Origin: Saprospiraceae bacterium | Lineage (GTDB): Bacteria; Bacteroidota; Bacteroidia; Chitinophagales; Saprospiraceae | Direction: 5' to 3' | NCBI GenBank assembly: GCA_020629915.1 | Contig: JAHDCK010000006.1 | Location: forward strand, 1-36,781 | Length of the DNA stretch: 36,781 bases | In this document: positions 10,005-27,620 of the stretch, one piece after another | Layout: each line of letters begins with the position of its first letter | How positions within the stretch are numbered: position 1 is the first letter of the stretch | Position numbers and translations under genes: made by a program | The notes under the pieces: model-generated | Seen by the model: the letters and a program-made list of their open reading frames with translations, nothing else | Databases searched by the model: none | What the model was told of the DNA's origin: nothing

Positions 10005-11045
10005 TTATTGGTTAGACGTTTTCCACAGTTCCTTGCTTAGCCATTCTCCAAGGAGTTTTTGGCCTTCGGGGGTTAGATGTGGATCATTGGTAAAAAAGAG
10101 CGTTTCGGGGTTATCTATGGTTTGTAAAAACTCTAATGCATTGATAATTTTTGCATTAGAATTTTTTAATGCGGGTTGCAGTGCACGAAGGAAGGGATAG
10201 GATATTTGCTGGAAATCTGTTTCGGGTGGAGCGGTGCATCCGAGTTGTTCCATTTGTTGCTGGTGTTGGTCGCTTACTTGGATGCAATGTGGAATAACCA
10301 ATACGATTTTTTTTGTTGTTTCCGGAAATTGATGGAGGAGTTCCCTGATTTCCGAAAAGTAATTTTGGAGGATTTTCTGTTTTTTTTCTTTTGTAAAAAT
10401 AGTTTGATAGAGATAATCCGGCTCGGCCTGAAAATACAAACGGCTGCGATGAGAATATTTTTTCGGGTCAAATTTTTGCGCAATTTGCCGGGGTTGGGGA
10501 GGTGTATCATTGTAGAATAAAGTTCGTATGTTTTTTAGTCTTATGTTTAGGTAAGGTAAAACTTTTAGGTAGCGGGATAAAAACCAGTAGCTTTTTCTAA
10601 AAAAGGAAATATTGGAACTGGCATAGGGCGGATCGTATTCCAGTAAATCATTTCCGACGTAAATTTGATATATTAAAATATCAGGATTGAATTGCTGGTT
10701 TCGCTTTTTGGCCATAAGGCGACTTTGAGTAATTGTCGTTCCGGAGATGGCACTGTTGATGATTTGCCAGTGGGGTTTGTTTTGACGGAGTGTTTTTAGA
10801 TAGCTATTGGGATCGGCGGAAAAGGAATCTCCGAGGGCGAGGAGAGTTGTATCTTTTTTTGTTTTATTAGAATTTAAATTATTTAAAAGAGCCAATTCAC
10901 TTCCGTAAAAATCAAACCAGTAATTTCTGTAGGTGATTTCTAATAAAATAAATACAACGGCAAACAGATAAAAAAGATAAAGAGATCCGCGGAAAAGTTG
11001 CTTAACCCATTTTAATGATTTGATATAAAATATGTTTTTCTCCAA
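10005..11045 (-). CDS. membrane-anchored SGNH/GDSL hydrolase-like protein
   Basis: The protein has 346 residues. One hydrophobic segment (about 18-38) should anchor it, with the rest in the periplasm. The GDSF motif (Gly72-Asp73-Ser74) provides a nucleophile-type serine. A C-terminal DPHLTPEG (Asp321, His323) supplies the Asp-x-x-His type pair of SGNH esterases. GNDLLEYDPPY near residue 135 may supply the Gly/Asn oxyanion block. Related single-pass SGNH proteins remove or transfer acyl groups on sugars. It is the last gene of the seven-gene minus-strand operon and overlaps the preceding methyltransferase by 44 nt. I infer acetyl or acyl editing of the locus product; the substrate is unknown. 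Confidence 0.72.
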   Translation of the reverse strand: MEKNIFYIKSLKWVKQLFRGSLYLFYLFAVVFILLEITYRNYWFDFYGSELALLNNLNSNKTKKDTTLLALGDSFSADPNSYLKTLRQNKPHWQIINSAISGTTITQSRLMAKKRNQQFNPDILIYQIYVGNDLLEYDPPYASSNISFFRKSYWFLSRYLKVLPYLNIRLKNIRTLFYNDTPPQPRQIAQKFDPKKYSHRSRLYFQAEPDYLYQTIFTKEKKQKILQNYFSEIRELLHQFPETTKKIVLVIPHCIQVSDQHQQQMEQLGCTAPPETDFQQISYPFLRALQPALKNSNAKIINALEFLQTIDNPETLFFTNDPHLTPEGQKLLGEWLSKELWKTSNQ

Positions 11046-11682
11046 TATTTATTTGATTTTCCAGTTCTTTCATTTTCAAATCATGCTCTAGTGCCAGTTG
11101 AGTTATTTTATCTAAATCACATTCTTCTGTTAAAATCATAATGATTTTGGTTGTACTTGAAATAAATAACTTTAACTGCTGAAACAAACCTTTAAAATAC
11201 AAAAAATCTTCTCCTCCAAAAAATGCGGCTTCCGTCATATCCTTCGGCTCGCGTGAAAAAAAAGGAGGATTGATGAAAATAAAATCAAATTCTTGCGGAG
11301 GAATTTTATCAAATAAATCAGACTCAATACAAATGATTTGCAGGTTATGATTTTCTGCATTTTCTTCCAGTCCTTTTATAGCCACGGGATTAATATCCGA
11401 AGCGGTCACTTTTGCTCCTCCTTGCGCAGCAAGCAGGCTCACTAATCCGTTTCCTGCTCCCAACTCCAGGAAAGATTTATTTTTAGGATCGATTTTATCT
11501 AAATAATCAATCAGCATCTTTGTCGCAAAAAAGCCCGGATAAAAAACGCTGGGATATATTTTTAATTTTAAATTTTTATATTTGTAGAAATAGGGTTTGG
11601 AAAATTTCCAGCGATAATACTTCCATAAATAGGGTTGAACCCAATGGCGGATTTTATTTAAATATTCATTTTTAGTATTCAA
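11002..11682 (-). CDS. class I methyltransferase with NPPF motif (MTS/PrmB-like)
   Basis: The protein has 226 residues. It contains motif I FLELGAGNGLVSLLAAQGG (about 91-109), the acidic ribose binder in VTASDINPVA, and FIFINPPFF. The NPP[FY] signature belongs to N-methyltransferases acting on planar amino or amide groups (RsmC/PrmB/HemK type). The membership fits the fold, but the target cannot be named. The apparent start is TTG, overlapping the radical SAM stop codon by 4 nt (TTGA), and no ATG lies nearby. It sits between a radical SAM gene and the SGNH gene in the operon. It could be housekeeping, but the tight overlaps suggest joint expression with the glycan genes. Confidence 0.8.
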   Translation of the reverse strand: MNTKNEYLNKIRHWVQPYLWKYYRWKFSKPYFYKYKNLKLKIYPSVFYPGFFATKMLIDYLDKIDPKNKSFLELGAGNGLVSLLAAQGGAKVTASDINPVAIKGLEENAENHNLQIICIESDLFDKIPPQEFDFIFINPPFFSREPKDMTEAAFFGGEDFLYFKGLFQQLKLFISSTTKIIMILTEECDLDKITQLALEHDLKMKELENQINIGEKHILYQIIKMG

Positions 11683-13190
11683 AATCCTTCGATTTCAGGT
11701 TGTCGGTAACGCAGCCAGAATTTTTGCAATGCCTTGATCTCGTAGGGGAATTTATGCCAGCCCATTTTATATCGCCAACTGGAAACGCCTCGGATAACTT
11801 TCTTTTGGAAGTTGCTCAACTTGACATCGGAGTGGGTCGGGTAGTAGCCATTCAGCACTACTTCAAAATTTTTAATTTCATCGATCATCTGAGCGGTTAG
11901 CCAGGGCGTGAGGGGATTTTTTCGCAGGTCAAATTTTTCCCACTGCGGACTGATCCAGTCTTCCAGTTTTTCGGGAAATTTAAATCCGGCTTCCGTGATG
12001 CGTTGATACAATTCGGAACCTTCCGTGGGAACGGGACTATAAACATATATGATAATTTCCGTGTCCGGGTTGACGGCTTTTACTTTTTTTATAAATTGTA
12101 TCTCGCTGCGAATTTGATCCATCACTTCCTTCTGGCTTCGTCCCGGTAATCCCAAAACAAAAGAATACTCCGGAATAATATCAAATTTTTTCATGCGTTC
12201 GGCAAAGCGAATGATTTGCGCGCCGGTTTGTTTGCCGCCTTTGTCCATTGCCTTGAGGATGTGATCGCTCCCGCTCTCCGCTCCAAAAAATATCATCCGG
12301 CAACCAGAGTCCCGCATAATTTTCAGCGTATCATCTTTGTATTTGTCTAATGTATCAATGCGTCCTTCTCCCCACCAGTTCATGTTTTCATTCAGCATCA
12401 ATTTAGAAAATTCCAATGTTCTTTTTTCTGATACGTAGAAATTGTTGTCGTGAAATTCGATGGCATCTGCACCGTAAGTCTCCTTGATTTTTTTTATATC
12501 ATTATAAATGAGTTGCGCACTTCTTCCTCGCCAACGCGCTTCGTAAATCGGAACAACAGCACAAAAGGAACACTTGAAGGGGCAGCCCATGCTGGAATGA
12601 TAAGCGAGTGTGTTCTCACCCAAAAAAGTCTTTGCCAAATAGTTTTTTATCGGATAAAATGAATTTAAATATTCGTAAGGGAGATCAGGGAGCGCGTCCT
12701 GATCCAGCAGGCTCTCCTTGTTGGTTTTTACAATGTCGCCCTTCTCCGTTTTATAAATTAAATTTGAGATAAACTCATAAGGTTTATTATTATTTAAAGC
12801 ATCTAGCAGTTCGGGGAAACATTTGTCGCCGGGCCCATTTATAGCAAAATCCACGTAGCCGGAATTGAGGACAACCTTGTGCTGATTGGAAGCAAAATAG
12901 CCACCCCAGATATTGATGACTTCAGGGAATTGCTCCCGCACTTTTTTGGCGAAGGGAATGGCCTGTTGCAGTTGCGGCCCTGGCATCACGGTCATCCCCA
13001 GGAACCGAAATTCCCCTGTGGCTAAGTAACGGTTGATAGTTTGCCAGGGATCTTTTTCCATGTTTCCATCCACAAAAACATATTCGTGTTTTCCATGTAT
13101 GCTTGCGCCTACTTGCAGGATGCTGTTTGGAATGCGGTGCTTGGCATTCGCACTTCGCGGATTAAAAAGTATGATTTTATTTTGGCTCAT
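11679..13190 (-). CDS. B12-binding-domain radical SAM enzyme, paralogue 1
   Basis: The protein has 503 residues. An N-terminal Rossmann-like cobalamin-binding-type domain (about 1-140) contains LGMTVMPGPQ and INIWGGYFAS. A radical SAM barrel follows with Cys203, Cys207 and Cys210 in GCPFKCSFC, the CxxxCxxC that binds the SAM-cleaving [4Fe-4S] cluster, plus IEFHDNNF and FFGAESGSDHIL strands. The DxHxxG cobalamin-ligating histidine is absent (VFVDGNMEK), so any cobalamin would be bound without a protein His ligand. Such enzymes methylate or rearrange unactivated carbons. The C-terminal ~120 residues are a family-specific extension. It lies 45 bp downstream of the glycosyltransferase. Its distance from the other two local paralogues suggests a separate reaction. 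Confidence 0.88.
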   Translation of the reverse strand: MSQNKIILFNPRSANAKHRIPNSILQVGASIHGKHEYVFVDGNMEKDPWQTINRYLATGEFRFLGMTVMPGPQLQQAIPFAKKVREQFPEVINIWGGYFASNQHKVVLNSGYVDFAINGPGDKCFPELLDALNNNKPYEFISNLIYKTEKGDIVKTNKESLLDQDALPDLPYEYLNSFYPIKNYLAKTFLGENTLAYHSSMGCPFKCSFCAVVPIYEARWRGRSAQLIYNDIKKIKETYGADAIEFHDNNFYVSEKRTLEFSKLMLNENMNWWGEGRIDTLDKYKDDTLKIMRDSGCRMIFFGAESGSDHILKAMDKGGKQTGAQIIRFAERMKKFDIIPEYSFVLGLPGRSQKEVMDQIRSEIQFIKKVKAVNPDTEIIIYVYSPVPTEGSELYQRITEAGFKFPEKLEDWISPQWEKFDLRKNPLTPWLTAQMIDEIKNFEVVLNGYYPTHSDVKLSNFQKKVIRGVSSWRYKMGWHKFPYEIKALQKFWLRYRQPEIEGF

Positions 13191-13235
13191 TGAGCGTTGT
13201 TTTTTAGACTTCCCAAGTTAAAATAATTTACCAGC

Positions 13236-14279
13236 TTATAAAAATAACGTTTTATAATATTTGATATATTGTTCAACTGTTTTTCTGATGGTGTAGGGGT
13301 TTTGGATTTTTTCTATTGTGGGATTATTGAGAAAATGAAGAACCGCCTTTGAAAACTCCTCTGCATTATTGCCAATTTTCCAGTGTGTTCCTTCTTCAGC
13401 CACGCCGACCTTCCTGGAAATGATCCGGGTTTGGTTGGCCAGGGCCTCCGGAAAAATCATCCCGAAACTTTCGTAGGTCGAAGGATGTAAAAGTACCTGA
13501 CTTCGGGCGATAAGTTCCAGGGTTTTTTGCCTTGAAATTTTACCTGTAAAATGAATATGATGTTCTAGTCCTGCGGCTTTACTTTGGGCTTCCAGCTTTT
13601 CTCTCTCCGGCCCGTCTCCAACGATATAAGCTCGAATATTTTTCTTATAGATTTGTGTTTTTTGTATGGTTTTTATAAAAGTATGAAAATCTTTTAGCTC
13701 TGTCAAATTACCCACTCCAATGACATCAATATCTTTTTTTACAGATGGCATCGTATCTTCTTCCGCTACTCCGAAGGGAATAATGGTTTGACTTTGGATT
13801 CCGGTATTTTGGTGCAGGACTTCTGTTTGAAATGCAGACTGAGTGATAAAATTTAGATTATTTAAATTTAATCTTTTTAAATATTTGTTTTCTTTTTTAG
13901 CATCCTGACCCATGAAAGAAACAAGGTGTGGGACATTTTTTCTTCTGGAAAGCCGTTGCCCAATCCAAGCGGTATCTGCCAGCCAAAAACTATGAATGAG
14001 GTCAACGGGTGTTTTTTGATGTATTTTAAAAAAACGAAAATAAGCCCGGCTAAAGATCAGAAAACGCTTGAAAAAACCTTTAGCATGACAAGGAAAAACA
14101 GGTAGGCTATTCCAGTGGTAAGGGGTTTTAGAAAAAGGAAAATGAAGTGTGATTATACTTATATTAAAATAATTGCTTAATTCTTTAACGAAAATCTGAA
14201 GGGCTGGGATACAAGTAGAATCTGCTTCATCTTTTGCAAAGCCGGAGGTGATGATTAATATATGTTTTTTCTTGTTCAA
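13236..14279 (-). CDS. GT-B glycosyltransferase, family 4 like
   Basis: The protein has 347 residues with two Rossmann domains. The N-terminal acceptor domain starts HILIITSGFAKDE. The C-terminal donor domain has VIGVGNLTELKDF, AYIVGDGPEREKLEAQ, HFTGKISRQKTLELIARS and the E-x7-E motif region ESFGMIFPEALAN. This is the pattern of retaining GT4 enzymes using nucleotide-sugars. The start is TTG at 14279, with no ATG close by. It lies 12 bp after a methyltransferase and 45 bp before a radical SAM gene in the operon. It probably adds one sugar to an envelope glycan on the cytoplasmic side. Confidence 0.9.
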   Translation of the reverse strand: MNKKKHILIITSGFAKDEADSTCIPALQIFVKELSNYFNISIITLHFPFSKTPYHWNSLPVFPCHAKGFFKRFLIFSRAYFRFFKIHQKTPVDLIHSFWLADTAWIGQRLSRRKNVPHLVSFMGQDAKKENKYLKRLNLNNLNFITQSAFQTEVLHQNTGIQSQTIIPFGVAEEDTMPSVKKDIDVIGVGNLTELKDFHTFIKTIQKTQIYKKNIRAYIVGDGPEREKLEAQSKAAGLEHHIHFTGKISRQKTLELIARSQVLLHPSTYESFGMIFPEALANQTRIISRKVGVAEEGTHWKIGNNAEEFSKAVLHFLNNPTIEKIQNPYTIRKTVEQYIKYYKTLFL

Positions 14280-14291
14280 TAGCTTAAATAT

Positions 14292-15095
14292 TTATTGTTG
14301 CTTTTGAAAATGAATATAGAAATGATCCGCCCGGTTGTAGAAAAATTTTAAATGTCCTGATATTTTATCCATATTAAATAACAAATTTAATATACTTTTT
14401 TTATTGTTAAATGCAGGTTGTAAGTAGGAGGGCGGAACAAAACTTCCGATAGAGCGAATGGCCTTTGCCTGAAATTCCGGCTCAAATATTCTAATAAAAT
14501 CAGCGGGAGAATAGTACCAGGTTTTGATAGTAGTTTGCCCATCTAAATTAGCCTCCACAGGAATGCCTTTTGACCGTCTGTTTGCTTTTTTTAAATCCCT
14601 TTTCAATAAAAAATACATATATTCCCACCAGCAATATTTTCCTATCACCACTGCGATAAAATGACCGCCGGGCCGGAGCAAATTAGACAGGTTTTTTACA
14701 GCACTCCGGATAGCCTTTTCATCCAGACAATTAATCCCGCCAAAATTAGAAAAAATTAAATCATATTTGTTATTTGATGATAGTTGTTGAAGGTTTTCGA
14801 TAGAAATAGTTTTTGTTTGTATAAAATTTTCCTTGTTTTCTTGCTTCACTTTTTGCTGAGTCATTCTAATCATTTCACTGGAAATATCTGTTGCTAAAAC
14901 CCGGCATCCCTGCTTAGTCAACCAAAGCGCGTCTTCTCCGGTTCCGCAGTTTAGCTCTAGGACATTTTGAATATTATTTTTTTGTATAAAAGGTTCTAAG
15001 TAACGATAGACCAATTGTCGTTGCAGTTGCCCGATGGAAGTGTGGGTAAACTGCTCGTCGTAATCTCCGGCTATGTCATCAAAGGCGGACTCCAT
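14292..15095 (-). CDS. class I SAM-dependent methyltransferase
   Basis: The protein has 267 residues. The N-terminus FDDIAGDYDEQFTHTSIGQLQR is typical of small-molecule methyltransferases. Motif I is VLELNCGTGEDALWL (about 40-54) with acidic VLATDISSEM; the motif IV region is YDLIFSNFGGINCL, followed by LRPGGHFIAVVIG. The C-terminal part (WWEYMYFLLKRDLKKANRRSKG, then YYSPADFIRIFEPEF) resembles methyltransferases found in polysaccharide and lipid clusters. Its ATG directly follows the TAG of the upstream radical SAM gene with no gap, which indicates translational coupling. It may methylate the same substrate as that radical SAM protein, though this is inference. Confidence 0.86.
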   Translation of the reverse strand: MESAFDDIAGDYDEQFTHTSIGQLQRQLVYRYLEPFIQKNNIQNVLELNCGTGEDALWLTKQGCRVLATDISSEMIRMTQQKVKQENKENFIQTKTISIENLQQLSSNNKYDLIFSNFGGINCLDEKAIRSAVKNLSNLLRPGGHFIAVVIGKYCWWEYMYFLLKRDLKKANRRSKGIPVEANLDGQTTIKTWYYSPADFIRIFEPEFQAKAIRSIGSFVPPSYLQPAFNNKKSILNLLFNMDKISGHLKFFYNRADHFYIHFQKQQ

Positions 15096-16550
15096 CTAGC
15101 GGGCTAATTTGTGTTGTGGTTTTTTTAAAATGGCAGCCGGGGCGTAATAGGCAAGTGAGGCGATTTTTTTTATAAGAAAAGGATTAATATCTTGAGGATT
15201 GCGCAGGAGATGTTGCAGAGCAGTTGTTCCCTGCTTGCGTCGAAACAGGCAGTGAATCCACCGATGCAATTGCTTGTAAAAAGTAGGCGGAAACGTAGCA
15301 GGATACATCATATCTAAATCATCTGAATCTGTCCAATTCTGTTTTTCCTTCATCAAAGTCTTTACCCGGTCGTAAAATAAAGTGCCGGGCAGAGGATAAG
15401 AAACCGAAACGCCGATGTCATCCGGCATGATGTCCAGCAGCATTTTTTTGGTGAGCAAAATGTCTTCCCAGTTTTCTTCCAGGTAACCAAACTGTAAAAA
15501 GAAACCCATTTTGATTTCCTGCGCTTTTAATTTTTTCCCGGCTTCATAAATCTGCTCTACCTTCGTTCCCTTGTCCATCGCATCCAGGATTTTTTGGGAG
15601 CCGGATTCTGCTCCGACCCAAACAATATCCAGGCCGGAATCCTTCAATGCCTGTATGGTATCTTCCTTGAGCAAAAGGTCAACTCTGGACTGTATTTTAT
15701 ATTTAAAATTTAAATTTCTCTTTTTTACCTCATCTCTGAATTTTTGAACCCAGCCGGGTTTTAATCCAAAAATATCATCACAGACCCAAAAATAATGCAC
15801 ATCATATTCGTTGATTAAATATTCGATTTCTTTTGCTACACGTTCCGGGCTTCGGGAATTATAGCGATTTCCGTAGATGGGTTTGGCGCACCAGTTGCAT
15901 TTGTAGGGACAGCCTCGCGTCGTCGCAAAATTTAGGGAAAAGTATCCATGCGCTTCCATCCAGATTTTTTTGTAGGATGGAATATCCACTAAATCCCAGG
16001 CCGGATCGGGCAGCGTATCCAAATCTCTTAGCACGGGACGACGGTTATTTTTTTGCGGCGCACCTTCGGATTGCCAGACGATGCCGGGAATATTCTCCGG
16101 AGTGAAATTTTCAGAATTGATTTTTACTAATAAATCTTTTAGCGTTTCTTCTCCTTCTCCAAGTAAAACATAATCGGCTCCCTGCTCTAAATATTTTTCA
16201 AAATGATCCGTAGAATCCGAACTGCAAACCATCACGGTGCAACCGTGTTCTTTTCCGATTTCACACAAGCGAAAAGCCGCTTCCCGCATTTTGGTCAGAC
16301 ACATTTTAGTGAGGTAATTAAATCCATCATCGTAGATAACGAGAAAATCAGGTTTTTCTTTTTTTATTATAGGTAAAATTTCATTGGGACTTTCCCGGAG
16401 ATTGGTGTCAAACAAGGCGACCTCGTAACCCATTTCCCGAACGGCTGCCGCAGCGTAGATTGTCCCGTAGGGCGGGTAGGGCATTTGGGTATTCCATTGC
16501 TTGGGATCAAAGCGATAGAAATAAGAGTGTGTGAATAATACCTTTTTCAT
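15096..16550 (-). CDS. B12-binding-domain radical SAM enzyme, paralogue 2
   Basis: The protein has 484 residues from the preferred ATG at 16550. This start overlaps the previous stop as ATGA, while an ATG 15 nt upstream lies inside that gene. An N-terminal B12-binding-type domain (KKVLFTHSYFYRFDPKQW..., about 1-135) is followed by a radical SAM core with Cys214, Cys218 and Cys221 (GCPYKCNWC), WVCDDIFGL, and WVGAESGSQKILDAMDKG. The cobalamin His motif is missing (ALFDTNLRES). It clearly resembles the protein at 24552 along its whole length, including FTHxYF at the N-terminus, PYPP, and the MMYPATFPPTFY-like tail. The two are paralogues and may act at consecutive or equivalent steps. Confidence 0.88.
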   Translation of the reverse strand: MKKVLFTHSYFYRFDPKQWNTQMPYPPYGTIYAAAAVREMGYEVALFDTNLRESPNEILPIIKKEKPDFLVIYDDGFNYLTKMCLTKMREAAFRLCEIGKEHGCTVMVCSSDSTDHFEKYLEQGADYVLLGEGEETLKDLLVKINSENFTPENIPGIVWQSEGAPQKNNRRPVLRDLDTLPDPAWDLVDIPSYKKIWMEAHGYFSLNFATTRGCPYKCNWCAKPIYGNRYNSRSPERVAKEIEYLINEYDVHYFWVCDDIFGLKPGWVQKFRDEVKKRNLNFKYKIQSRVDLLLKEDTIQALKDSGLDIVWVGAESGSQKILDAMDKGTKVEQIYEAGKKLKAQEIKMGFFLQFGYLEENWEDILLTKKMLLDIMPDDIGVSVSYPLPGTLFYDRVKTLMKEKQNWTDSDDLDMMYPATFPPTFYKQLHRWIHCLFRRKQGTTALQHLLRNPQDINPFLIKKIASLAYYAPAAILKKPQHKLAR

Positions 16551-17512
16551 ATAATTTTCATCCATTTACGAATCTGATCCAGTTGAATATTATGTTTTTT
16601 TTCGTATAATAAAATTCGTTCTTTAATTTTATCAATAACCTTTGTCTGAAAACTTTCCGGGTGATGTTTGGACACATTTTTAGTGGATTTAAATGCCAGA
16701 TCAAATTCTGATTTTTTCATCCCTGTAAATTTTTTTCTCCAAACGGAATGTGTTCCCTTTCTAAAAAAATCATCCAACCAATTTCCAATAAGACCAGAAA
16801 AAACAAATTCAAAAAATCTTTTTATAAGATTATTATTTGTGGGTTTTATATGTTCTGTTTCTCTGCGCCGTGCGTTGGGATAAAAATCATGGACCCAGGC
16901 ATTTGTTTCCATAAATTTATGGTAAAATTTTGGATTGGTCATAGGTAGCAGGGTGACAATTTCGGTTGCCGTGAAGATATTTTTTTCTTCAATTTCCAGA
17001 TTATCGGTAGTGACGAAATAATTAACACAAAAATATTTGTGAGAATTGAATAAAAATATTTTTTTATACAATATTAAAAAAGTGCGTGCTATCCAGAGCC
17101 TCCCCGGTTTTGTGATTATAAAAAAATCAATATCTCCATCTTTAGTCTGGACATTTTTTGAGAGTGCTCCCGAAATAAAAACAGCTCTTACAAAAGGAAA
17201 ACCATGAATGAATCGAGCTTGTTTAATGGCCTTAGGAAAAATATTTTTAGCGCGTTGATTATTCTCCTTTCTTTTTTTTATATTAGAAAAATTTTCTTCC
17301 AGGCTGTATAAGTTTTCAGAACAAGATAAATAATGATTTTGATGAAAATGTTGCAGCTCTTCCTCCAACCTGTGAATGGAGTTTATCTTCTCTGGACTGA
17401 ATCGTTTGATTTCTTCTGTAGTGAGGGGATAGGAAAATACATCGAAGTAGAACAAGGGGCAAAGGCATTGTTCAAGTACAAGAGAAGGTTTATTGGGATT
17501 CGATGTTGTCAT
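16547..17512 (-). CDS. nucleotidyltransferase-fold protein
   Basis: The protein has 321 residues. An N-terminal helical part (about 1-100, perhaps winged-helix-like) precedes the polymerase-beta nucleotidyltransferase signature SGALSKN...DGDIDFFII (Gly115-Ser118, Asp127 and Asp129). The third acidic residue could lie in the strand near CVNYFVTTDNLEIEE. A short hydrophobic stretch occurs near 240 (FFEFVFSGLIGNWL). Proteins of this fold transfer nucleotidyl groups to small molecules, proteins or RNA; the substrate here is unknown. It is the first gene of the operon ending at 10005 and is coupled to the radical SAM gene by an ATGA overlap. This constant pairing suggests it activates or tags the same pathway product. 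Confidence 0.7.
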   Translation of the reverse strand: MTTSNPNKPSLVLEQCLCPLFYFDVFSYPLTTEEIKRFSPEKINSIHRLEEELQHFHQNHYLSCSENLYSLEENFSNIKKRKENNQRAKNIFPKAIKQARFIHGFPFVRAVFISGALSKNVQTKDGDIDFFIITKPGRLWIARTFLILYKKIFLFNSHKYFCVNYFVTTDNLEIEEKNIFTATEIVTLLPMTNPKFYHKFMETNAWVHDFYPNARRRETEHIKPTNNNLIKRFFEFVFSGLIGNWLDDFFRKGTHSVWRKKFTGMKKSEFDLAFKSTKNVSKHHPESFQTKVIDKIKERILLYEKKHNIQLDQIRKWMKII

Positions 17513-19477: not shown

Positions 19478-19485
19478 ATTTTGAG

Positions 19486-20868
19486 CTAAAAACGATAATC
19501 CATTCCTATATTATTATATAATAAAATTGGATTTGATTTAACTTCCGGGCTAAGGTGAATATCTTTTAACGCATAACTTATTCGGGAGGAAAATTTAATA
19601 CTAATATTTTTATTTAATTGGTAAAATACAGATGTATTCCCCAGCAGATAGAACTTGTTAGCAAAACTAAAATCGCTTTGTCCTATTGGAAATGGGGCAA
19701 ATTCTCCACTAGAGTTTTTTGGTAGCGGTCGGAGTGTTTTTCCTTTACTGGTACTTAGGAAGGTATATTTTATCCCGGCTCCAAGTTCAACTCCAAATCT
19801 TCTGGCTGGCATTTTGAATTGAGCGGTTAGTAATACAGGGATAGATATCAATTGATGTTTATTAAAATGCTTTGTCCGCAAGGTAGCCACAGCTTCCCGG
19901 TTGGAAGACCAGTTGGGTACGCTCAGTGGATTGCCTGTAAGGGCGCTTGTTACTGAGTGGGAGCGGGTTAAAACAGAATCTTTTTTATAAGTATAATCCA
20001 GTTTACTTTCCAATGAGAGATACTCAATTCCGGATGTGATTTTCCATTTTTCTCTAAAATACCAACTTAAATCAGCGGCTAGTCCATAACTTAAAATTTC
20101 ATTTTCCGCAAGGGAATTCTCCGCAGCAAGTTTACTCCCGGAATATCGGGTGGCCCAGGAAGTCATTCCGCCAGTCAAAGAGATTTCAAATCCTTTGCCT
20201 GATTTTTTTGGGTCTTCGTTGTCCTCCGGATCATTTTTGTGGGAAGGGAAGCCAGCCCAATTGGAAGCATAATTAAGAGGTTTTATTGCAGGCACTTTTA
20301 ATCGGTTCAAAATGGAAAAACTTGGGTTGGTTGTTGCTGCAACAGACTCTTTTTGAGTGTATTTCCGTGTTCGGGCTGGCACATTCACCTCTCTCAATAA
20401 TTCTTTTTTTTCTTTTGTAGGAAGAATAAAGTTTTGTTTTATTTCTGAAGATTTTTTTGGATTGCCAGAGATTTTATTGTAATAATTTTTATTTAAATTT
20501 ATTTTGTTTTTAGAATTAGAGACTTCATTTTTTGCGGCATTGATTTCTTTTATAATAGTATTAATCGAATTTGTTTTCTTTGTTTTTGAAATTTCTGCAA
20601 TAGAAGAAGGAGCAGAATTTTGTTTTACTTTTGCCAGAGCAGTAGTTGTTTCTTTTGTAGAATTATTGGAAATAAAATAAAGAAGTGTTGTTCCTGAAAT
20701 GAATAACAGAAAGATTAGAAGTATATAAAATTTATTATTAGGATCATCCTTTTTGTCTAATGCTTCCTTTTTAGAAAGAATCCCGGCTTCCATTTTTTCC
20801 CACGACAAGTATTCGGGTAGTTCTTCATCTACCTTCCTGAATTTATTATGTAAATTTTCTTTACTCAT
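19486..20868 (-). CDS. predicted anti-sigma-type protein: one inner-membrane helix plus outer-membrane beta-barrel domain
   Basis: The protein has 460 residues from the ATG at 20868; a TTG two codons earlier is possible. The N-terminal ~45 residues are charged (KFRKVDEELPEYLSWEKMEAGI), as in sigma-binding segments. One membrane helix follows (about 46-65, FYILLIFLLFISGTTLLYF). A Lys/Asn/Ser-rich linker (about 70-215) precedes a beta-rich C-terminus with alternating aromatic strands (FEISLTGGMTSWATRYSG, YGLAADLSWYFREKWKITSG, FGVELGAGIKYTFLS, final IGMDYRF). The C-terminus resembles the Bacteroidota outer-membrane barrel (OMP_b-brl-like) family. It starts 26 bp after the ECF sigma gene. The architecture implies a trans-envelope protein linking the surface to the sigma factor; that role is inferred. 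Confidence 0.75.
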   Translation of the reverse strand: MSKENLHNKFRKVDEELPEYLSWEKMEAGILSKKEALDKKDDPNNKFYILLIFLLFISGTTLLYFISNNSTKETTTALAKVKQNSAPSSIAEISKTKKTNSINTIIKEINAAKNEVSNSKNKINLNKNYYNKISGNPKKSSEIKQNFILPTKEKKELLREVNVPARTRKYTQKESVAATTNPSFSILNRLKVPAIKPLNYASNWAGFPSHKNDPEDNEDPKKSGKGFEISLTGGMTSWATRYSGSKLAAENSLAENEILSYGLAADLSWYFREKWKITSGIEYLSLESKLDYTYKKDSVLTRSHSVTSALTGNPLSVPNWSSNREAVATLRTKHFNKHQLISIPVLLTAQFKMPARRFGVELGAGIKYTFLSTSKGKTLRPLPKNSSGEFAPFPIGQSDFSFANKFYLLGNTSVFYQLNKNISIKFSSRISYALKDIHLSPEVKSNPILLYNNIGMDYRF

Positions 20869-20894
20869 GTTCAATCAATTTGAGTTCTTAAAAA

Positions 20895-21428
20895 TTAAGA
20901 ACTTTTTTTATAATGTACTTTTAACCATTTCAACCCACGAGATAATTGGGAGCGGGAAGTTTGTGGTGAGATTTCTAATATTTGTGAAATTTCTTTATGT
21001 GAATAGCCTTCTACAAACGATAATAAAAAAATCGTTCGGTATCCCTGTGGCATCATTTTTATCAACCTGTCCAAAACAGAAGTATTTAATTTTTCCACAT
21101 CTAAATCTTCATTTTCAATCGAAACATCAAAGTCATTTTCAAGAGCTTCAAACTGCTTTAGTTTTTCTGTTTTTTTCAAGTAGGTAATCGTTTGATTCAG
21201 GGTAATTCTGCTTAGCCAGGTTTTAAAGGAGGCCTTATTCTCATCGTACTTATGAATAGCGTGAAAGACATTTGCAAAGACTTCCTGCATGACATCTTTT
21301 CTGTCTTCCTGTCTGGAAATATAATTTTTTATAATAGAAAAAACATAAGGAGCACAGGTTTCATAGCATTCTTTGAAACCCTTGTGCTCCCCATTCCTAC
21401 ATGAATCAATAAGTCTCTTTTCTATCAT
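20895..21428 (-). CDS. RNA polymerase ECF-type sigma-70 factor
   Basis: The protein has 177 residues from ATG 21428. A TTG-initiated extension to 21467 exists, but the ATG gives the typical ECF beginning (MIEKRLIDSCRNGEHKGFKECYETCAP). Region 2 includes RKDVMQEVFANVFHAIHKYDENKASFKTWL, the -10 recognition and core-binding part. Region 4 includes MPQGYRTIFLLSFVEGYSHKEISQIL...SRSQLSRGLKWLK, the helix-turn-helix for the -35 element. It should direct RNA polymerase to an unknown regulon. The next gene downstream encodes a membrane/barrel protein likely to control it. The repeat-rich lipoprotein lies just upstream on the same strand and may belong to the same circuit. Confidence 0.93.
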   Translation of the reverse strand: MIEKRLIDSCRNGEHKGFKECYETCAPYVFSIIKNYISRQEDRKDVMQEVFANVFHAIHKYDENKASFKTWLSRITLNQTITYLKKTEKLKQFEALENDFDVSIENEDLDVEKLNTSVLDRLIKMMPQGYRTIFLLSFVEGYSHKEISQILEISPQTSRSQLSRGLKWLKVHYKKSS

Positions 21429-21575
21429 ATCGGTTTTTAAATCAATTTTGGGAACCGGAAGTTGCAAACTTTAAAAAGTTTCGTTTTGATCGTTTCCCCA
21501 TTTGCCGTTTACACCTTCCGGATTGCCCTGATAACACAAAGGTTATACTAAAAACCAGTTTATATAATTACAATT

Positions 21576-22787
21576 TTAGTCACAGGAAATAAGTAAATTA
21601 TCAAAATCTGTTTGGTCATTTATGCTGAGGATCGTTCCATCTGTCAGGGTTACAAAAAGTGGTAAAGTAACCTCCACAACATTTGGATTGGAATTCATTT
21701 CATTTTCGAGTTCGGTGGCATCATTCACCATAATACTGGTTCCATCAAATTGAATTAGTTCTATAGGAAAATTCATAGTATAACAATCAGACAAATCCGT
21801 AGAGAAAATCCAAAGCTGAAAGAGTAATTCAAGACTTCCAATATTTCCACCGCCACCCATTCCGGGGCAATCATTAGCAGCAGCATCTAGTTCCGCCTGG
21901 TTATTGACAACGATAACTGTTCCGTCAGGTGCAGTCAAAGTCAATGGAAAAGCATACCCCGCAAATTGTCCCATCAGCATCAGGTCACATAATTCCATGT
22001 GGTCATTTACAGTTACAACCGTTCCATCTACCAAGACAACATCCAGGGGGAAGGCCACGGTGTAACAGTAGATATATTCCAGTCCTGTATCCCAGTTGAT
22101 AATTCCGGTGTCTACCGGGAAGTCCCCACAGGATGATACTAACGCTTGCAGTAATTCATCTATATCATTTACGGTAATTTGTATTCCATCTTCATCTTGC
22201 AGATCAAATGGAAAAACAAAGTATTGGGGTTCATCTGCAATGGCGGCATTGAACTCTGTGAGGTTGGTAACGGTGGTAGAATCCCCATTGTCATTAACAA
22301 GCGTTAAAGGGAATACTAATTCGTAACAGGAGTTGTCAAACCCAATGGCATAAGCCGGGAATAAATCGGTCCAGCCGTTTGGAAGGCAATTTGCAAATGC
22401 CTGAGACAATTCATTAATATCGTTGATCACTCCTGTCGTCCCATCTTCATAAGTAACATTGATCGGGTAAACAAAATCGCAATAAATATATATGGAATCT
22501 TGTCCAAGTGCATCCAGGTCAGTTTGGTCATTGACCGGATATTGGTTGCCATCGGGATCAACTAGTGTAAAGGGAAAGTTTACCGTAAAGCAATCCAGGT
22601 CAAGTCCGGTGGTTGTTGTTAGTCCGCGCGACATTAATGGGTTTGCGGTAGCAACGTCTCCGGGGTTTGGAGTAATCGTTTCTTTTACTTCAATTACTTC
22701 TTCTAAGTTATCTTTTTCACAGGAAGTAAAAATTAATGTGAAAGACAACAAAAAAAGGAAAGACAATCTATATAAGTTCATGTTCAT
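21576..22787 (-). CDS. repeat-rich lipoprotein (eight FPxxL...DG...VND units)
   Basis: The protein has 403 residues. A lipoprotein signal (SLF-type hydrophobic stretch, then LIFTSC at about residue 22) points to lipid attachment. After a short acidic linker come eight units of about 24 residues spaced roughly 35-50 apart. Each follows [FYL]-P-[FLI]-x-[LV]...[DN]-G...[VI]-[NT]-[DN]...[LF], for example FPFTLVDPDGNQYPVNDQTD and LPLFVTLTDGTILSINDQTD. They group in four pairs. Every pair opens with Cys-[FY] and closes with Cys near its end, suggesting four disulfide-stabilised modules. I do not recognise a named family. It lies 108 bp upstream of the sigma gene's long frame, same strand. A CGTTCGAACG palindrome sits 36 bp before its start. 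Confidence 0.85.
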   Translation of the reverse strand: MNMNLYRLSFLFLLSFTLIFTSCEKDNLEEVIEVKETITPNPGDVATANPLMSRGLTTTTGLDLDCFTVNFPFTLVDPDGNQYPVNDQTDLDALGQDSIYIYCDFVYPINVTYEDGTTGVINDINELSQAFANCLPNGWTDLFPAYAIGFDNSCYELVFPLTLVNDNGDSTTVTNLTEFNAAIADEPQYFVFPFDLQDEDGIQITVNDIDELLQALVSSCGDFPVDTGIINWDTGLEYIYCYTVAFPLDVVLVDGTVVTVNDHMELCDLMLMGQFAGYAFPLTLTAPDGTVIVVNNQAELDAAANDCPGMGGGGNIGSLELLFQLWIFSTDLSDCYTMNFPIELIQFDGTSIMVNDATELENEMNSNPNVVEVTLPLFVTLTDGTILSINDQTDFDNLLISCD

Positions 22788-22822
22788 TATTTTAAAATCA
22801 AAAAATCAAATTCATTTTATTT

Positions 22823-22832: not shown

Positions 22833-22972
22833 TACACTATATTATTCTAGAAGAAAATGTAAACGTTGCATCTGATAGAAATTTTTTTTCGTTTTTTTTC
22901 AAATAGGGAAGAAGAAGGCAGGGGATAGATTGCCTCAGAGTCTTTAAAAAAAAGAGGAAGATTAATTTGATT

Positions 22973-23136
22973 TAAGTAGGTGGACATAAATAAGTTATTT
23001 TTTTGGCGGATAGATTTTTAGTTCAGACAAGGCGAAAAACACAGGCGATGCCTAAGCATCGGCGAGTATTTTCAACGAAGTATGAACTAAAAAGATGTCG
23101 CCATAAAACATATAGTTAATTGTGTCCACCTACTTA
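22973..23136. repeat. 164-bp palindromic intergenic element, copy A
   Basis: Perfect 14-bp terminal inverted repeats (TAAGTAGGTGGACA at 22973-22986 and its complement at 23123-23136) bound an element that is an imperfect palindrome along its length. Further paired blocks are TTTTTAGTTCA and its partner, and the central GATGC-CTAA-GCATC. Its core matches the element at 36461-36632. The right end supplies the TAG stop codon of the O-antigen-ligase-like gene. It fills most of the 342-bp gap 22788-23129; the rest is AT-rich with only the palindrome at 22823. Confidence 0.75.
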
Positions 23137-24473
23137 TTATATAAAATGCTCAACCAAGCCAAAAAACTCCAAAACAAAATCGCAATTTTATCCTGGTGTA
23201 GAAAGTTATTAAAAAAGGCATGAATAAAATAACTGAGCAAACCCAGTCCAAGGGCCAATCCAATCCAGCGATTTCTTTTGGATAGTTTGGAGTGATAAAT
23301 TTTTATAGTTGTAAGAAAAGTAAATCCCAAAAAAAACAGCCAGCACAATCCACCGATGATTCCGTTTTCGGAGAGTGCCTGGAGGTATTCGGAATGTGCG
23401 CCGCCGCCTCTGCCGGGAGGATGATCGCCGGATGTGGTAACGCTGATGCGGGTCATTTCTTCCTCGCGCTGGAAAGGAAGATAAGCCGAAGCAAAAGTCC
23501 CGGAGCCAAATCCAGCCACCGGACGTTCCACAAACATCCGCCAGGCACAGCTATACCGATTGAGTCGTTCCTTATTGGAAACATCTTTTGTTAGATTTGT
23601 AATGGATTGAATATGATGGGAAAGGTCTTCCGTTTTTGAAATAGCCTGATTTCCGGAAATGTAGTTTTTTATATTGTTTAAATTTAAATAAAAAAGTAAA
23701 AGAAAACTTCCTCCCAAAATGGCAAAATGCTTTATTTTAAATTTTAATATTATAATAAAAAATACAAAAACTAAAATACAGGCAGCACTCAGCCAGGTGG
23801 CGCGGGAAAAAGAAAGATAAATGCCAATAATAAATATCAAAGATAAAGCCAGGGAAAGGTATTTTTGATTTTTTGACAAACCACTTTCACGGGCAGGTAG
23901 CATACTGCCCACCAGCGTCAGGGGCAGGAGCATTAACATCGCCGTGCTGTATTGTGCATGATCAAAATAAAAAGGCCGGGCGGTCAGTACAGAAGTGGAA
24001 ATACTGAAATTGTATTGGGCGTGATTATACCAGCTAAAAAAAATGACGAGGCAAAATGTCAAGCTATACATTCCCACCCACCAAAAATCTTTAGAAGGAT
24101 TTTTAAGATACCAATAAATAAATCCTATATAAAAAACAGCCCAGTGCATCTCCGCAATAAAAGTGTACTTGGCAGATACGAGCCAATCGGAAGAAAAGGG
24201 AACAGTTACCCACATCCAGCCTAGTAAAATCATAGCCACCCAGGTAGTAGGGAATCGGAAAAATTGCAATACCTCATTCTGAATGAGACCTGCAAGCAAC
24301 AGGAGTAATATCGGTAGCAATATTTCTGAAGGAAGGTTTAGCTTAAAATAAGTTGCCTCCCATTCCGCAGAAACAGGTAAAATAAATATTAGAAAGATTA
24401 ATATTTTGTCGAAAATATTCTTGTACGCTGTTTCTTGAGTACTCAATGTTACAATTATTTTACTTTTCCTCAA
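23130..24473 (-). CDS. O-antigen ligase-like (Wzy_C) membrane protein
   Basis: The protein has 447 residues with about eleven hydrophobic helices. The conserved Wzy_C/WaaL block includes LNRYSCAWRMFVERPVAGFGSGTF and, after a loop, GAHSEYLQALSENGIIGG, holding Arg and His residues typical of the family. It lacks the TPR tail of the protein at 17705, so the locus has two different family members. Its start is uncertain: TTG at 24473, or a TTG nine codons later, and no ATG is near. Its last codons and TAG stop lie in the end of a palindromic element. It diverges from the radical SAM gene across about 80 bp. A polymerase or ligase for lipid-linked glycan is likely, but which one is unknown. Confidence 0.84.
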   Translation of the reverse strand: MRKSKIIVTLSTQETAYKNIFDKILIFLIFILPVSAEWEATYFKLNLPSEILLPILLLLLAGLIQNEVLQFFRFPTTWVAMILLGWMWVTVPFSSDWLVSAKYTFIAEMHWAVFYIGFIYWYLKNPSKDFWWVGMYSLTFCLVIFFSWYNHAQYNFSISTSVLTARPFYFDHAQYSTAMLMLLPLTLVGSMLPARESGLSKNQKYLSLALSLIFIIGIYLSFSRATWLSAACILVFVFFIIILKFKIKHFAILGGSFLLLFYLNLNNIKNYISGNQAISKTEDLSHHIQSITNLTKDVSNKERLNRYSCAWRMFVERPVAGFGSGTFASAYLPFQREEEMTRISVTTSGDHPPGRGGGAHSEYLQALSENGIIGGLCWLFFLGFTFLTTIKIYHSKLSKRNRWIGLALGLGLLSYFIHAFFNNFLHQDKIAILFWSFLAWLSILYNK

Positions 24474-24519
24474 AGTAAGAATTTTTGAAGTAATGAACCC
24501 AACAATGATTCCTTTGTTT

Positions 24520-24527
24520 TATCTTTG
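24520..24527 (+). promoter_or_regulatory. candidate -7 promoter box (TATCTTTG) of radical SAM paralogue 3
   Basis: TATCTTTG matches TAnnTTTG. Transcription would start near 24533. The TTG at 24525 lies inside this box and so would not be transcribed, which favours the GTG at 24552 as start codon with a leader of about 20 nt. Confidence 0.45.
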
Positions 24528-24551
24528 AGTGTATTCCAAAAAACAGGAAAG

Positions 24552-25943
24552 GTGAAAATAATTTTTACACATGGTTATTTTATTGCAGAAGATCCCAAGG
24601 AGCAGGCGATTATGAAACCCTACCCTCCGCTTGGGCTTTTGTACATTAGTGCCTGGCTGGAAAAGCATGGGTATGATAACGAAGTTTATGATACGACTTT
24701 TTCTGATGTGAAATCTCAACGCGATTACCTCCTTCAAAATCCACCCGAAGTCCTTGCTATTTATACCAACCTGATGACCAAAATCCAAATTGTCAATCTG
24801 GTTAATTTTATTAAAACAAATAAAAAATTTTCGGATACTCTGGTGGTTATCGGCGGTCCGGATGTTACCTACAACCTCCAAAACTATCTCGGAACCGGAG
24901 CGGATGTCCTCGTCATTGGGGAAGGCGAACAAACCATGCTAGATCTGGTCAAAGCTCGGGAGCAGGGATTTATGAAGCAGTTTGGGCATATTGACGGCGT
25001 GGCATTTTTGGATGAACAAGGCGATGTAGTCAAAACAAACAAGCGGTCGCACCTCCGCCCGGTTTCTCAACTGCCCTTACCCAATCGCAAAAAAATCGAC
25101 CTGCACAAATACCTGGAAACCTGGAAAAAACATCACGGACGAAGTGCTGTTTCTGTAAGTACCCAGCGGGGTTGTCCCTATACTTGCCGCTGGTGCAGCA
25201 CGGCCGTTTACGGACAAAGCTACCGCCGCCGTCCGGTGGAATCCGTTGTGGCAGAGTTGATAGAATTGAAAAAAACATATAACCCGGATCAAATTTGGTT
25301 TGTGGATGATGTCTTTACGGTGAGTCATAAATGGTTGATGGCTTTTAGGGATGAATTAAGGAAAAATAATATACAAATTCCATTCGAGTGTATTTCCCGT
25401 GCGGATAGAATGAATGAAGAGGTGATTAAAATATTGAAAGAATCTGGATGTTTTAGGGTTTGGATAGGGGCGGAGAGCGGTTCGCAGCGCATTTTGGATG
25501 CGATGGATCGTCGGGTGAAAACGGAACAGGTATCGGATATGATACAAGCGACTCAGCAGGCGGGGATGGAAGCCGGGACTTTTATTATGCTGGGTTATCC
25601 GGGTGAAACAATGGAAGATATTAAAGAAACTTTAAATCATTTGCAGCGATCTAATCCCACTCATTTTACGATTACGACGGCTTATCCGATAAAAGGAACG
25701 AGCCTTTTTACAGAAATTGAAAGAGACATAACGGAGCGTCCGGACTGGAATCAATCTACAGATCGGGAAATAGATTTTAAAAGAACTTATCCAAGAAAGT
25801 TTTATCCGTATGCGACTAACTGGGTGGTCAATTCGATGAAGTGGTATCAGATGCAGCAAAACAATCAACACCTGAGTTGGAAGGGATTTAAAACATATAT
25901 GAAAATCAATTTGTCCCGTATCGCTATGCACCGTTATTTATAG
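24552..25943 (+). CDS. B12-binding-domain radical SAM enzyme, paralogue 3
   Basis: The protein has 463 residues from GTG 24552. This start aligns with paralogue 2 (KIIFTHGYF versus KKVLFTHSYF) and lies after the -7 box; TTG 24525 would add nine residues. The B12-binding-type domain (about 1-140) contains LVVIGGPDVTYN and GADVLVIGEGEQTM. The radical SAM core has Cys208, Cys212 and Cys215 (GCPYTCRWC), WFVDDVFTV and WIGAESGSQRILDAMDRR. The cobalamin His motif is again missing (EVYDTTFSDV). The tail FKRTYPRKFYPYATNW matches that of paralogue 2. It ends tail to tail with a methyltransferase, overlapping it by 10 nt. Probable role: carbon methylation or another radical modification of a glycan or lipid precursor (inferred). 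Confidence 0.88.
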   Translation: MKIIFTHGYFIAEDPKEQAIMKPYPPLGLLYISAWLEKHGYDNEVYDTTFSDVKSQRDYLLQNPPEVLAIYTNLMTKIQIVNLVNFIKTNKKFSDTLVVIGGPDVTYNLQNYLGTGADVLVIGEGEQTMLDLVKAREQGFMKQFGHIDGVAFLDEQGDVVKTNKRSHLRPVSQLPLPNRKKIDLHKYLETWKKHHGRSAVSVSTQRGCPYTCRWCSTAVYGQSYRRRPVESVVAELIELKKTYNPDQIWFVDDVFTVSHKWLMAFRDELRKNNIQIPFECISRADRMNEEVIKILKESGCFRVWIGAESGSQRILDAMDRRVKTEQVSDMIQATQQAGMEAGTFIMLGYPGETMEDIKETLNHLQRSNPTHFTITTAYPIKGTSLFTEIERDITERPDWNQSTDREIDFKRTYPRKFYPYATNWVVNSMKWYQMQQNNQHLSWKGFKTYMKINLSRIAMHRYL

Positions 25944-26647
25944 ATACAAATCCAGGGAAAGGGACTTCTTGCTTTTCCCAGTTTTCTGATGAGCTTATTT
26001 TGCCACGTATTTGGATGGTATAAAATTTTATGTGAGAAATTTTTAATTGAATCTATTGTGTGGTGGAAGTAGTATTGCGCCATTTCCGGATGCCCCAGTT
26101 TTGTATAATAATCTACTGTCCTTTTTTTTGCTTTTGCTATTTCATTTTCTTTATAAAATGGAGAATCCAATATATGAATTTCACCATTTTTATTGAGCAA
26201 TGCTAATAATCGCCCTGTAATTTTATCGAAATCCGAAAAATACTGAATGGCACTACAAACGACAATGCAATCAAACCGGGTGATAATATTTTTATCAAAA
26301 ACATCCTGATATTTAAAATGTAAATTAGAAGTATTGAAAATGCGTTGCGCCTGATCGAGTTCCGTTTGATTGACATCCCAGCCATGAATTTCTGCCGGAA
26401 TATTTTGGGCCAGGGCCGCTGTCATCCAGCCATTTCCACAACCAAGATCCAGGATGGTTTTAAAGGATGATTTATTTTTTAAATATGCAATTAAATTGTT
26501 TGTTGTTTTTTTTCGGATTGTCCACTTGTCAAAATGTGGGTCATGCTCAGCCACCTCCGGCAACCGCCTTACCTGTTCATCCGTAAAAAACAGACCTTCC
26601 TTTTTTCGGATTTCGATATAATTTTTTTCAAATGACTCAGGATTCAT
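25934..26647 (-). CDS. class I SAM-dependent methyltransferase
   Basis: The protein has 237 residues. Motif I is ILDLGCGNGWMTAALAQN (about 60-77), acidic IHGWDVNQTE (about 85), and motif IV DCIVVCSAIQYFSDF with NKNGEIHILDSPFY after it. The C-terminus (KAKKRTVDYYTKLGHPEMAQYYFHH) resembles methyltransferases in glycan clusters. The start ATG lies inside the end of the GT9 gene (11-nt overlap), so the two are probably translated in coupling. The 3' end overlaps the convergent radical SAM gene by 10 nt, so both transcripts run into each other. Confidence 0.86.
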   Translation of the reverse strand: MNPESFEKNYIEIRKKEGLFFTDEQVRRLPEVAEHDPHFDKWTIRKKTTNNLIAYLKNKSSFKTILDLGCGNGWMTAALAQNIPAEIHGWDVNQTELDQAQRIFNTSNLHFKYQDVFDKNIITRFDCIVVCSAIQYFSDFDKITGRLLALLNKNGEIHILDSPFYKENEIAKAKKRTVDYYTKLGHPEMAQYYFHHTIDSIKNFSHKILYHPNTWQNKLIRKLGKARSPFPWICIYK

Positions 26648-27620
26648 TTAATAAAAATTTTATTTTTTCAAATATAAACTTAGGGGAATATCTGGTTAAG
26701 CAACGCACGTCACCGTGTTTACATTTAGCCAGCATACAATCTCCGCATGCGAGATCAGAACTCGTAAGGTTTATAACATGAGGGTAGGGGGGAGCGGTCC
26801 AGTCTGCCCTTGTAGAACCCAGCATCAAAACTGTCTTTACACCTTGTACCCAGGCCATGTGTGCCAATCCTGAATCCTCCGAAACCATAACTGCCACTTT
26901 TCTTAAAAGAGCAAAAGCTTCCAGGATATTGGTTTGCTCTACAAGGTTGATAGTATCTTTTGGAAAAGTTTTTTCTATTATACGACTTTTTTCTGCAATT
27001 CTTTTGTCGCCGAGCAATAAGATTTTAAATGGATGTAAAAATTTATTTTTAATAATTTTAATTAAATTGATATAATTTTCAAGCGGCCAGTTTCGACTGG
27101 AAAAAAAACCCGCAGGATTCAAGAGGATGAGCTGTTCATTGGTATAACCTGCTTTTTGCAATAGTTCCAATCCGGCATTCGCATTTTTTATTTTTATATT
27201 GAAATCAGGATTTATGTCAAATTCCCCTTTTTGAATTCCTTCAAGATAACGGGTTCCGGCAAACTTTGGAGAAAATTTTTCAAAGGTGCTGATCTTTTTA
27301 TTCCTGTGAAAAAACTTGACCAATTTTGATTTTTTATCGTCTTGTAAATCCAGAATGATATCATAACCATTCAAGAGTAACTGCGGGATTTTTAATAAAT
27401 TATAGGCGAACATAGCCTTTGCATTTTTATTGCCTTTAATTTTTATAATATTATTAAAAATATAAGTGTTTTGATGGACTTTAGCGTTGTCTTTCACGGT
27501 GATTAGATCGATCTGCGCATCGGGAAGCAATTGCCGCAGGCCATTTAAAAAGGGCAATGTGATTAACACATCCCCCAGGGCATGAAAACGGATGACAAGT
27601 ATTTTAAGGTTTTTTGACAT
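26637..27620 (-). CDS. GT9 glycosyltransferase (heptosyltransferase-like)
   Basis: The protein has 327 residues. The N-terminus LKILVIRFHALGDVLITLPFLNGLR is the classic GT9 beginning, with Asp in GDV as the likely catalytic base. The donor domain has LILLNPAGFFSSRNWPLENYINL, VAVMVSEDSGLAHMAWVQG and TVLMLGSTRADWTAPP. A Cys-rich end (CGDCMLAKCKHGDVRCL) resembles the tail of many GT9 proteins. GT9 enzymes add ADP-heptose or related sugars to lipid A-core or other lipid acceptors at the inner membrane. It overlaps the following methyltransferase by 11 nt, and the terC terminator lies just before its start codon. Confidence 0.9.
   Translation of the reverse strand: MSKNLKILVIRFHALGDVLITLPFLNGLRQLLPDAQIDLITVKDNAKVHQNTYIFNNIIKIKGNKNAKAMFAYNLLKIPQLLLNGYDIILDLQDDKKSKLVKFFHRNKKISTFEKFSPKFAGTRYLEGIQKGEFDINPDFNIKIKNANAGLELLQKAGYTNEQLILLNPAGFFSSRNWPLENYINLIKIIKNKFLHPFKILLLGDKRIAEKSRIIEKTFPKDTINLVEQTNILEAFALLRKVAVMVSEDSGLAHMAWVQGVKTVLMLGSTRADWTAPPYPHVINLTSSDLACGDCMLAKCKHGDVRCLTRYSPKFIFEKIKFLLNES

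Follow-up and report, generated by a model that had tools for sequence, protein, structure and literature searches.

The DNA studied here is a stretch of 36,781 nucleotides (below, the window) from a Saprospiraceae bacterium (contig JAHDCK010000006.1 of assembly GCA_020629915.1), and our subject is a 17.6-kb interval in it (10005-27620) that encodes three B12-type radical S-adenosylmethionine (SAM) proteins (RS1, RS2 and RS3), a predicted nucleotidyltransferase (NT) and three methyltransferases (MT1, MT2 and MT3) among genes of glycan assembly. Most of these genes form a minus-strand operon, NT-RS2-MT2-GT4-RS1-MT1-SGNH, which runs from 17512 to 10005 with several overlaps and a widest gap of 45 bases. 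The first gene, NT (16547-17512), encodes 321 amino acids with a putative winged helix and pol-beta-type fold and a weak Pfam NTP_transf_2 match. It is followed by RS2 (15096-16565, 489 amino acids, Pfam Radical_SAM 73 bits), the class I SAM methyltransferase MT2 (14292-15095, 267 amino acids, Methyltransf_25), the glycosyltransferase GT4 (13236-14279, Glycos_transf_1), RS1 (11679-13190, 503 amino acids, Radical_SAM 49 bits) and MT1 (11002-11682), a class I, HemK/RsmC-like methyltransferase recognized by motif alignment and profile matches. RS3 (24525-25943, plus strand, 472 amino acids, Radical_SAM 87.5 bits) and the convergent class I SAM methyltransferase MT3 (25934-26647, minus strand, Methyltransf_31) belong to a second group of genes (23130-27620) that also includes Wzy2 and GT9 (see below). 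All named genes are intact open reading frames (ORFs), and RS1, RS2 and RS3 are full-length. The inventory of the initial annotation, made from the letters of the sequence, listed three radical SAM proteins with B12-type N-domains, two O-antigen-ligase-like proteins, GT4 and GT9 glycosyltransferases, three methyltransferases, a nucleotidyltransferase and an SGNH-like protein, and intact ORFs, Pfam matches and fold comparisons confirmed every item.

Gene adjacency was counted over 103 loci. On the same strand, MT2 and RS2 were adjacent in 80 loci, NT and RS2 in 73, MT2 and RS3 in 43, and RS1 and MT1 in 13, the genes usually overlapping. Adjacent MT2-RS2 pairs always lay on one strand with a median overlap of 5 bases, and RS3 was found directly 3' of MT2 in 43 loci other than the window. 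NT-RS2-MT2(-RS3) is thus a tight overlapping cassette, present from Flavobacterium to Ignavibacteria, and RS1-MT1 is a second one; MT3 adjoined RS3 in 10 loci and MT2 in 13. Flavobacterium humi (locus L132) carries a 10-gene single-strand operon NT-RS2-MT2-RS3-GT39-like-GT4-ABC-GT2-RS1-MT1, and locus L098 a 6-gene single-strand operon NT-RS2-MT2-MT3-RS1-MT1. Like the F. humi locus, locus L117 of F. noncentrifugens has almost all of the set. The conserved core consists of NT, RS2 and MT2, with RS3, RS1-MT1, MT3 and GT4 (relatives in 22 of the 103 loci) as frequent companions. In the F. humi locus a beta-lactamase-fold (serine hydrolase) gene (20829-21455) follows MT1.

Co-occurrence was determined in a phylum sample of 392 near-complete genomes and an order sample of 150 genomes. 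In the phylum sample RS2 was found in 29 genomes and NT in 31, all 29 RS2 genomes having both and 361 genomes neither; the Fisher test gave 7e-42 by genome and 3e-26 by genus, the latter being a rough guard against relatedness. In the order sample NT was detected in 24 genomes and RS2 in 26, with 23 shared, and RS1 and RS3 occurred exclusively within RS2-positive genomes (15 of 15 and 20 of 20, respectively). NT was single-copy in 16 of 16 named RS2 genomes tested. At least 577 relatives were confirmed and at least 80 loci were named, which came from Flavobacteriaceae, Saprospiraceae, Lewinella, Cytophagales-type genera and Ignavibacteria. The initial annotation had made its proposal depend on whether these genes travel together in related genomes, and the radical SAM genes, MT1-3 and NT were found to co-occur and to co-localize across many families.

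The module genes are inherited together. The RS2 tree largely follows family lines; MT2 score classes track RS3 (47 MT2 proteins with RS3 score 158-255 bits, and 28 with NT and without RS3 mostly 90-135 bits), and NT/RS2 and MT2/RS3 distances correlate at 0.77, lineage effects contributing both to the score classes and to this correlation. In the window's own family the set was absent from 18 other genomes sampled, and therefore gain or multiple loss within that family is likely. An RS2-MT2 clade has no NT nearby (loci L063, L069, L073, L076, L083, L086, L087, L094 and L126); several of its members adjoin a 2-oxoglutarate dehydrogenase E1-like gene, and those in loci long enough for the test had no glycan genes. 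One NT was located elsewhere in the genome in 9 of 9 genomes with such an arrangement. Locus L074, an RS2-MT2 pair on a contig of a metagenome-assembled genome labelled Thermoanaerobaculia (Acidobacteriota), groups inside the Saprospiraceae clade and may represent a misbinned contig or a transfer.

The three radical SAM proteins carry invariant CxxxCxxC cysteines (C203/C207/C210 in RS1, C219/C223/C226 in RS2 and C217/C221/C224 in RS3). The Pfam cut-off for the B12-binding domain (32.1 bits) was exceeded by RS3 (42.0) and not reached by RS2 (30.2) or RS1 (24.2), so that the N-terminal B12-binding-type Rossmann domain was identified in RS3 by Pfam, in RS2 just below the cut-off and in RS1 by fold. 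The AlphaFold model of RS1 (mean predicted local distance difference test score, pLDDT, 84.5) could be aligned, over most of its length, with TsrM, OxsB, MgmA, TokK, CysS and AprD4 (Foldseek E 4e-17 to 1e-13). The initial annotation had called all three proteins paralogues; RS2 and RS3 are close ones, sharing 33% identity over 450 residues, whereas RS1 is distant (25%), and is 55-71% identical among its own relatives. By sequence, the closest solved relative of RS2 and RS3 is MgmA (9ccb), a protein glutamine methylase; RS1-3 all have AprD4 among their closest relatives of known structure. When assignment to an unrelated known pathway was checked, no radical SAM protein reached the curated cut-off of any named NCBIfam family: RS1 scored 131 against 578 for HpnJ, RS2 142 against 481 for BchE, and RS3 156 against 600 for PhpK and 145 against 360 for TIGR04072 (lipid biosynthesis). 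The profiles TIGR03975 and ApyD, C-methyltransferases of ribosomally synthesized and post-translationally modified peptides (RiPPs), also showed similarity to the radical SAM proteins, at scores far under cut-off. Enzymes of this radical SAM fold catalyse dehydration and ring contraction as well. The genome encodes the B12 enzymes MetH and methylmalonyl-CoA mutase, and therefore the organism very likely uses B12; that the RS proteins themselves use cobalamin we infer.

The AlphaFold2 model of NT (pLDDT 94.1) comprises a winged helix (residues 7-74), which matched other winged helices, and a pol-beta core (85-207), which matched kanamycin nucleotidyltransferase (Z 8.2-8.4). Against ANT(4') the model gave Z 8.4 over 113 residues with a root-mean-square deviation of 3.3, and it also resembles the MNT/MntA nucleotidyltransferases. 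The GS...DxD signature, with its DxD on the adjacent strand, is present, and D127 and D129 are invariant in 46 sequences; N164 and E184 are likewise invariant in the alignment. NCBIfam gave no match for NT, and no relative was found in the PDB by sequence, profile search included, so the likeness is one of fold only. Taking into account the pol-beta core like that of ANT(4')/MntA and the invariant D127/D129, NT is likely to be an active nucleotidyltransferase.

MT1 has an NPP motif (N138 P139 P140) that is invariant in 16 sequences. It matched the profiles of MJ0882, RsmC, METTL5, HemK and N6AMT1, with E values of 6e-16 to 4e-13 for the last four, and falls in the NPP[YF]-motif group of N-methyltransferases (HemK/RsmC/N6AMT1). 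The nearest solved relatives of MT1 are N-methyltransferases acting on amides or bases. The motif and these relatives suggest that MT1 acts on a planar nitrogen (e.g. an amide or a base) in its substrate.

Around the module, the recurrent neighbours were GT4, GT2, PMT_2 and GT87 GT-C transferases, O-antigen ligases and unassigned membrane proteins. An MsbA-like ATP-binding cassette (ABC) exporter was found near the module in 13 loci, and a SPASM-type radical SAM protein constituted a fourth radical enzyme in 8 loci (including L055 5375-6427, L056, and L057 4600-5637). Glycan-assembly genes accompanied NT at 30 of the 33 long named loci, compared with 2 of 20 control stretches taken from carrier genomes. 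The glycan context of the module, another claim of the initial annotation, is well supported by this strong enrichment. The initial annotation had also set the locus apart from standard O-antigen and capsule pathways; Wzx and an initiating transferase were not seen in the window or among the recurrent neighbours scanned, and the only related gene near the interval was of the NAD-dependent epimerase type (30247-31212, outside the interval). Three recurrent neighbour families, exemplified by L135 15109-16233, L136 10152-11309 and L117 13609-15132, have no significant Pfam match; one is soluble and two have many membrane spans.

The interval holds further genes. WzyTPR (17705-19477, plus strand), an O-antigen-ligase-like membrane protein with tetratricopeptide repeats (Pfam Wzy_C and TPR), is divergent from NT, an arrangement seen in 6 other loci, two of them in Lewinella. 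Wzy2 (23130-24473, minus strand, Wzy_C), also an O-antigen-ligase-like membrane protein, is divergent from RS3 and has a relative in locus L059 only. GT9 (26637-27620, minus strand), a heptosyltransferase-like glycosyltransferase (Glyco_transf_9), overlaps MT3 and has relatives in 4 of the 103 loci, and the accessory SGNH/GDSL-like protein at the operon end (10005-11045, minus strand; weak Pfam matches of 25 bits to GDSL and 24 to SGNH) has relatives adjoining the module in loci L042 and L051. An ECF (extracytoplasmic function) sigma factor, a membrane or outer-membrane-protein-like protein and a repeat-containing lipoprotein (19486-22787) separate the two halves of the module; they did not recur with module genes and were rejected as parts of the system. 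The initial interpretation is partly supported, with NT-RS2-MT2 as the conserved core and Wzy2, GT9 and SGNH as local or infrequent members.

Chance adjacency of the module genes was rejected by the co-occurrence and the control stretches. Spread on plasmids was rejected, since 72,556 plasmids contained no RS2 relative at E 1e-60, and so was phage origin, PHROGs giving no match for NT, RS1 or RS2. For anti-phage defence, the PADLOC matches were confined to generic radical SAM and methyltransferase domains, with none for NT, and this explanation was discarded too. Elsewhere in the window, a frameshift near 8470-8520 breaks an FtsK gene (7449-9948, minus strand) into two ORFs that overlap; it lies within the ATPase domain, where the Walker A motif reads GATGHGKYVG; this is probably an assembly or sequencing indel of the draft genome.

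These observations suggest a biosynthetic role. The module appears to bring known superfamilies together in an undescribed combination for glycan-associated biosynthesis. Carriers probably decorate a surface glycan with a radically modified group; that the co-inherited module both builds this group and attaches it to a surface glycoconjugate we regard as having about an even chance. Since radical SAM genes pair with methyltransferases, paired C- and O/N-methylations are suggested, and radical C-methylation (or another radical carbon change) would be coupled with O/N-methylation and nucleotidyl transfer. In such a pathway NT, like the aminoglycoside nucleotidyltransferases, would put a nucleotidyl group on a precursor hydroxyl; each of the B12-type radical SAM enzymes would methylate or otherwise alter an unactivated carbon; and the partner class I methyltransferase would add an O- or N-methyl group, MT1 on a planar nitrogen. 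Local glycosyltransferases would then put the product into a glycan, and the membrane proteins would export, polymerize or ligate it, the conserved core making a shared modified unit and the variable transferases the strain-specific remainder. We likewise infer the sequence of the steps and the nature of the product. A more definite version, which we think less likely than not, is that there is a hitherto unknown class of bacterial surface glycoconjugates, extending from Flavobacteriia to Ignavibacteria, made through a nucleotidylated intermediate, up to three radical C-methylations or carbon changes, matching O/N-methylations and then strain-specific glycosylation.

Several points weigh against the glycoconjugate pathway. 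The RS2-MT2 clade mentioned above (e.g. L063, L073 and L076) has no nearby glycan genes, and no sugar-nucleotide synthesis gene, initiating transferase or Wzx was recurrent with the core among the neighbour families scanned. In the order sample, three genomes with RS2 (G077, G123 and G132) lacked NT by profile; two of these are 72-75% complete and the other, at 93%, is a draft spread over 370 contigs, and a missing piece of the assembly is the likely explanation. RS1 distances correlate weakly with those of the other module genes (0.20-0.26). The B12-type domain has SSSD in RS2 and GGPD in RS3, and B12 use is not readable from the fold, because AprD4 shares it and is not known to depend on cobalamin. 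Moreover, two acidic residues have been recognized at the NT site (D127 and D129), and no third one.

The same genes could serve other ends. Instead of a sugar, the target of the core might be a lipid or a polyprenyl carrier, in the manner of HpnJ and the ladderane-type radical SAM proteins, the glycosyltransferases then yielding a glycolipid. The presence of HpnJ (RS1), BchE (RS2) and TIGR04072 (RS3) among the best-scoring NCBIfam profiles and the MsbA-like exporter agree with this, but the scores are far under the cut-offs, and genes for isoprenoids, hopanoids, acyl carriers or fatty acids were not found among the recurrent neighbour families scanned, three of which are without a Pfam match; we consider a lipid substrate rather unlikely. 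Nor is it probable, in our estimate, that the core makes a small diffusible sugar-bearing metabolite (an antibiotic or signal) exported by the ABC protein. Secondary metabolism is where B12 radical SAM methyltransferases typically occur, the fold matches include TokK, CysS and OxsB, and the resemblance of NT to antibiotic nucleotidyltransferases might reflect self-protection; in contrast, conservation across the phylum, largely family-wise inheritance of RS2, a single copy per genome and ligase and GT-C neighbours are not what an antibiotic cluster typically shows, and no polyketide synthase or nonribosomal peptide synthetase gene was present among the neighbours scanned.

The core might also modify a component of translation (tRNA, rRNA or a protein, e.g. 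a release factor), the glycan genes being mere neighbours; the HemK/RsmC/N6AMT1-like MT1 with its NPP motif and the relation of RS2 and RS3 to MgmA agree with this. The patchy presence (29 of 392 genomes), the enrichment of glycan genes and the packing of GT4 and SGNH into the window operon make this quite improbable. The similarity to TIGR03975 and ApyD could point to RiPP maturation, with the radical SAM enzymes C-methylating a ribosomal peptide. The scores argue against it, as does the overlapping or abutting arrangement of the core genes in the window and its relatives, which leaves no space for a precursor inside the operon (short ORFs elsewhere were not searched), and this role is very improbable.

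What is known of B12-type radical SAM enzymes concerns mainly antibiotics, cofactors and a few lipids. In the present case several such enzymes, tied to genes for surface glycans, belong as a fixed, single-copy component to about 7% of the phylum genomes sampled, cultured strains (e.g. Flavobacterium humi and Kordia algicida) included, and no description of the gene set was found in open-access full texts (PubMed Central), subscription papers and preprints being outside the scope of the search. If the glycoconjugate pathway proposed above is correct, radical carbon chemistry and nucleotidyl transfer would join the bacterial glycan toolkit, a large set of radical SAM proteins that lack an assignment would gain a role, and B12 supply would be linked to the cell surface in environmental Bacteroidota. 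As the NT-RS2-MT2 set is near-obligate, the question can be directly tested in cultured flavobacteria.

Compared with known systems, the module shares GT4, GT2 and GT-C transferases and Wzy_C proteins with Wzx/Wzy O-antigen and capsule loci and with Bacteroidota protein O-glycosylation loci, whereas what is conserved in it is the core of radical SAM, methyltransferase and NT genes, with no recurrent Wzx or sugar-nucleotide genes seen. HpnJ, BchE and PhpK are the top-scoring named NCBIfam profiles for RS1, RS2 and RS3, but the scores come to between one quarter and one third of the curated cut-offs, and the neighbours differ. NT has the pol-beta-type core and the G-S...D-x-D signature of the ANT(4')/MntA-type nucleotidyltransferases; in contrast to these, it carries in addition a winged helix at the N-terminus and a helical part at the C-terminus, and is tied to a biosynthetic cassette. 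In fosfomycin synthesis (Fom1/Fom3) a B12 radical SAM methyltransferase acts on a nucleotidylated intermediate; the nucleotidyltransferase fold of Fom1 differs from that of NT and fosfomycin synthesis is not a glycan pathway, so the parallel is an analogy only. AprD4, the aminoglycoside diol dehydratase, is like RS1-3 a radical SAM protein with a B12-type N-domain and acts on a sugar-containing substrate, but it works with a reductase partner, which was not seen at the module. The cobalamin radical SAM methyltransferases TsrM, TokK, CysS and MgmA, as well as OxsB, share the Rossmann-type N-domain and the radical SAM core with CxxxCxxC; RS1 is only 13-16% identical to them in fold alignments, and here three such proteins belong to one pathway and each is paired with a class I methyltransferase.

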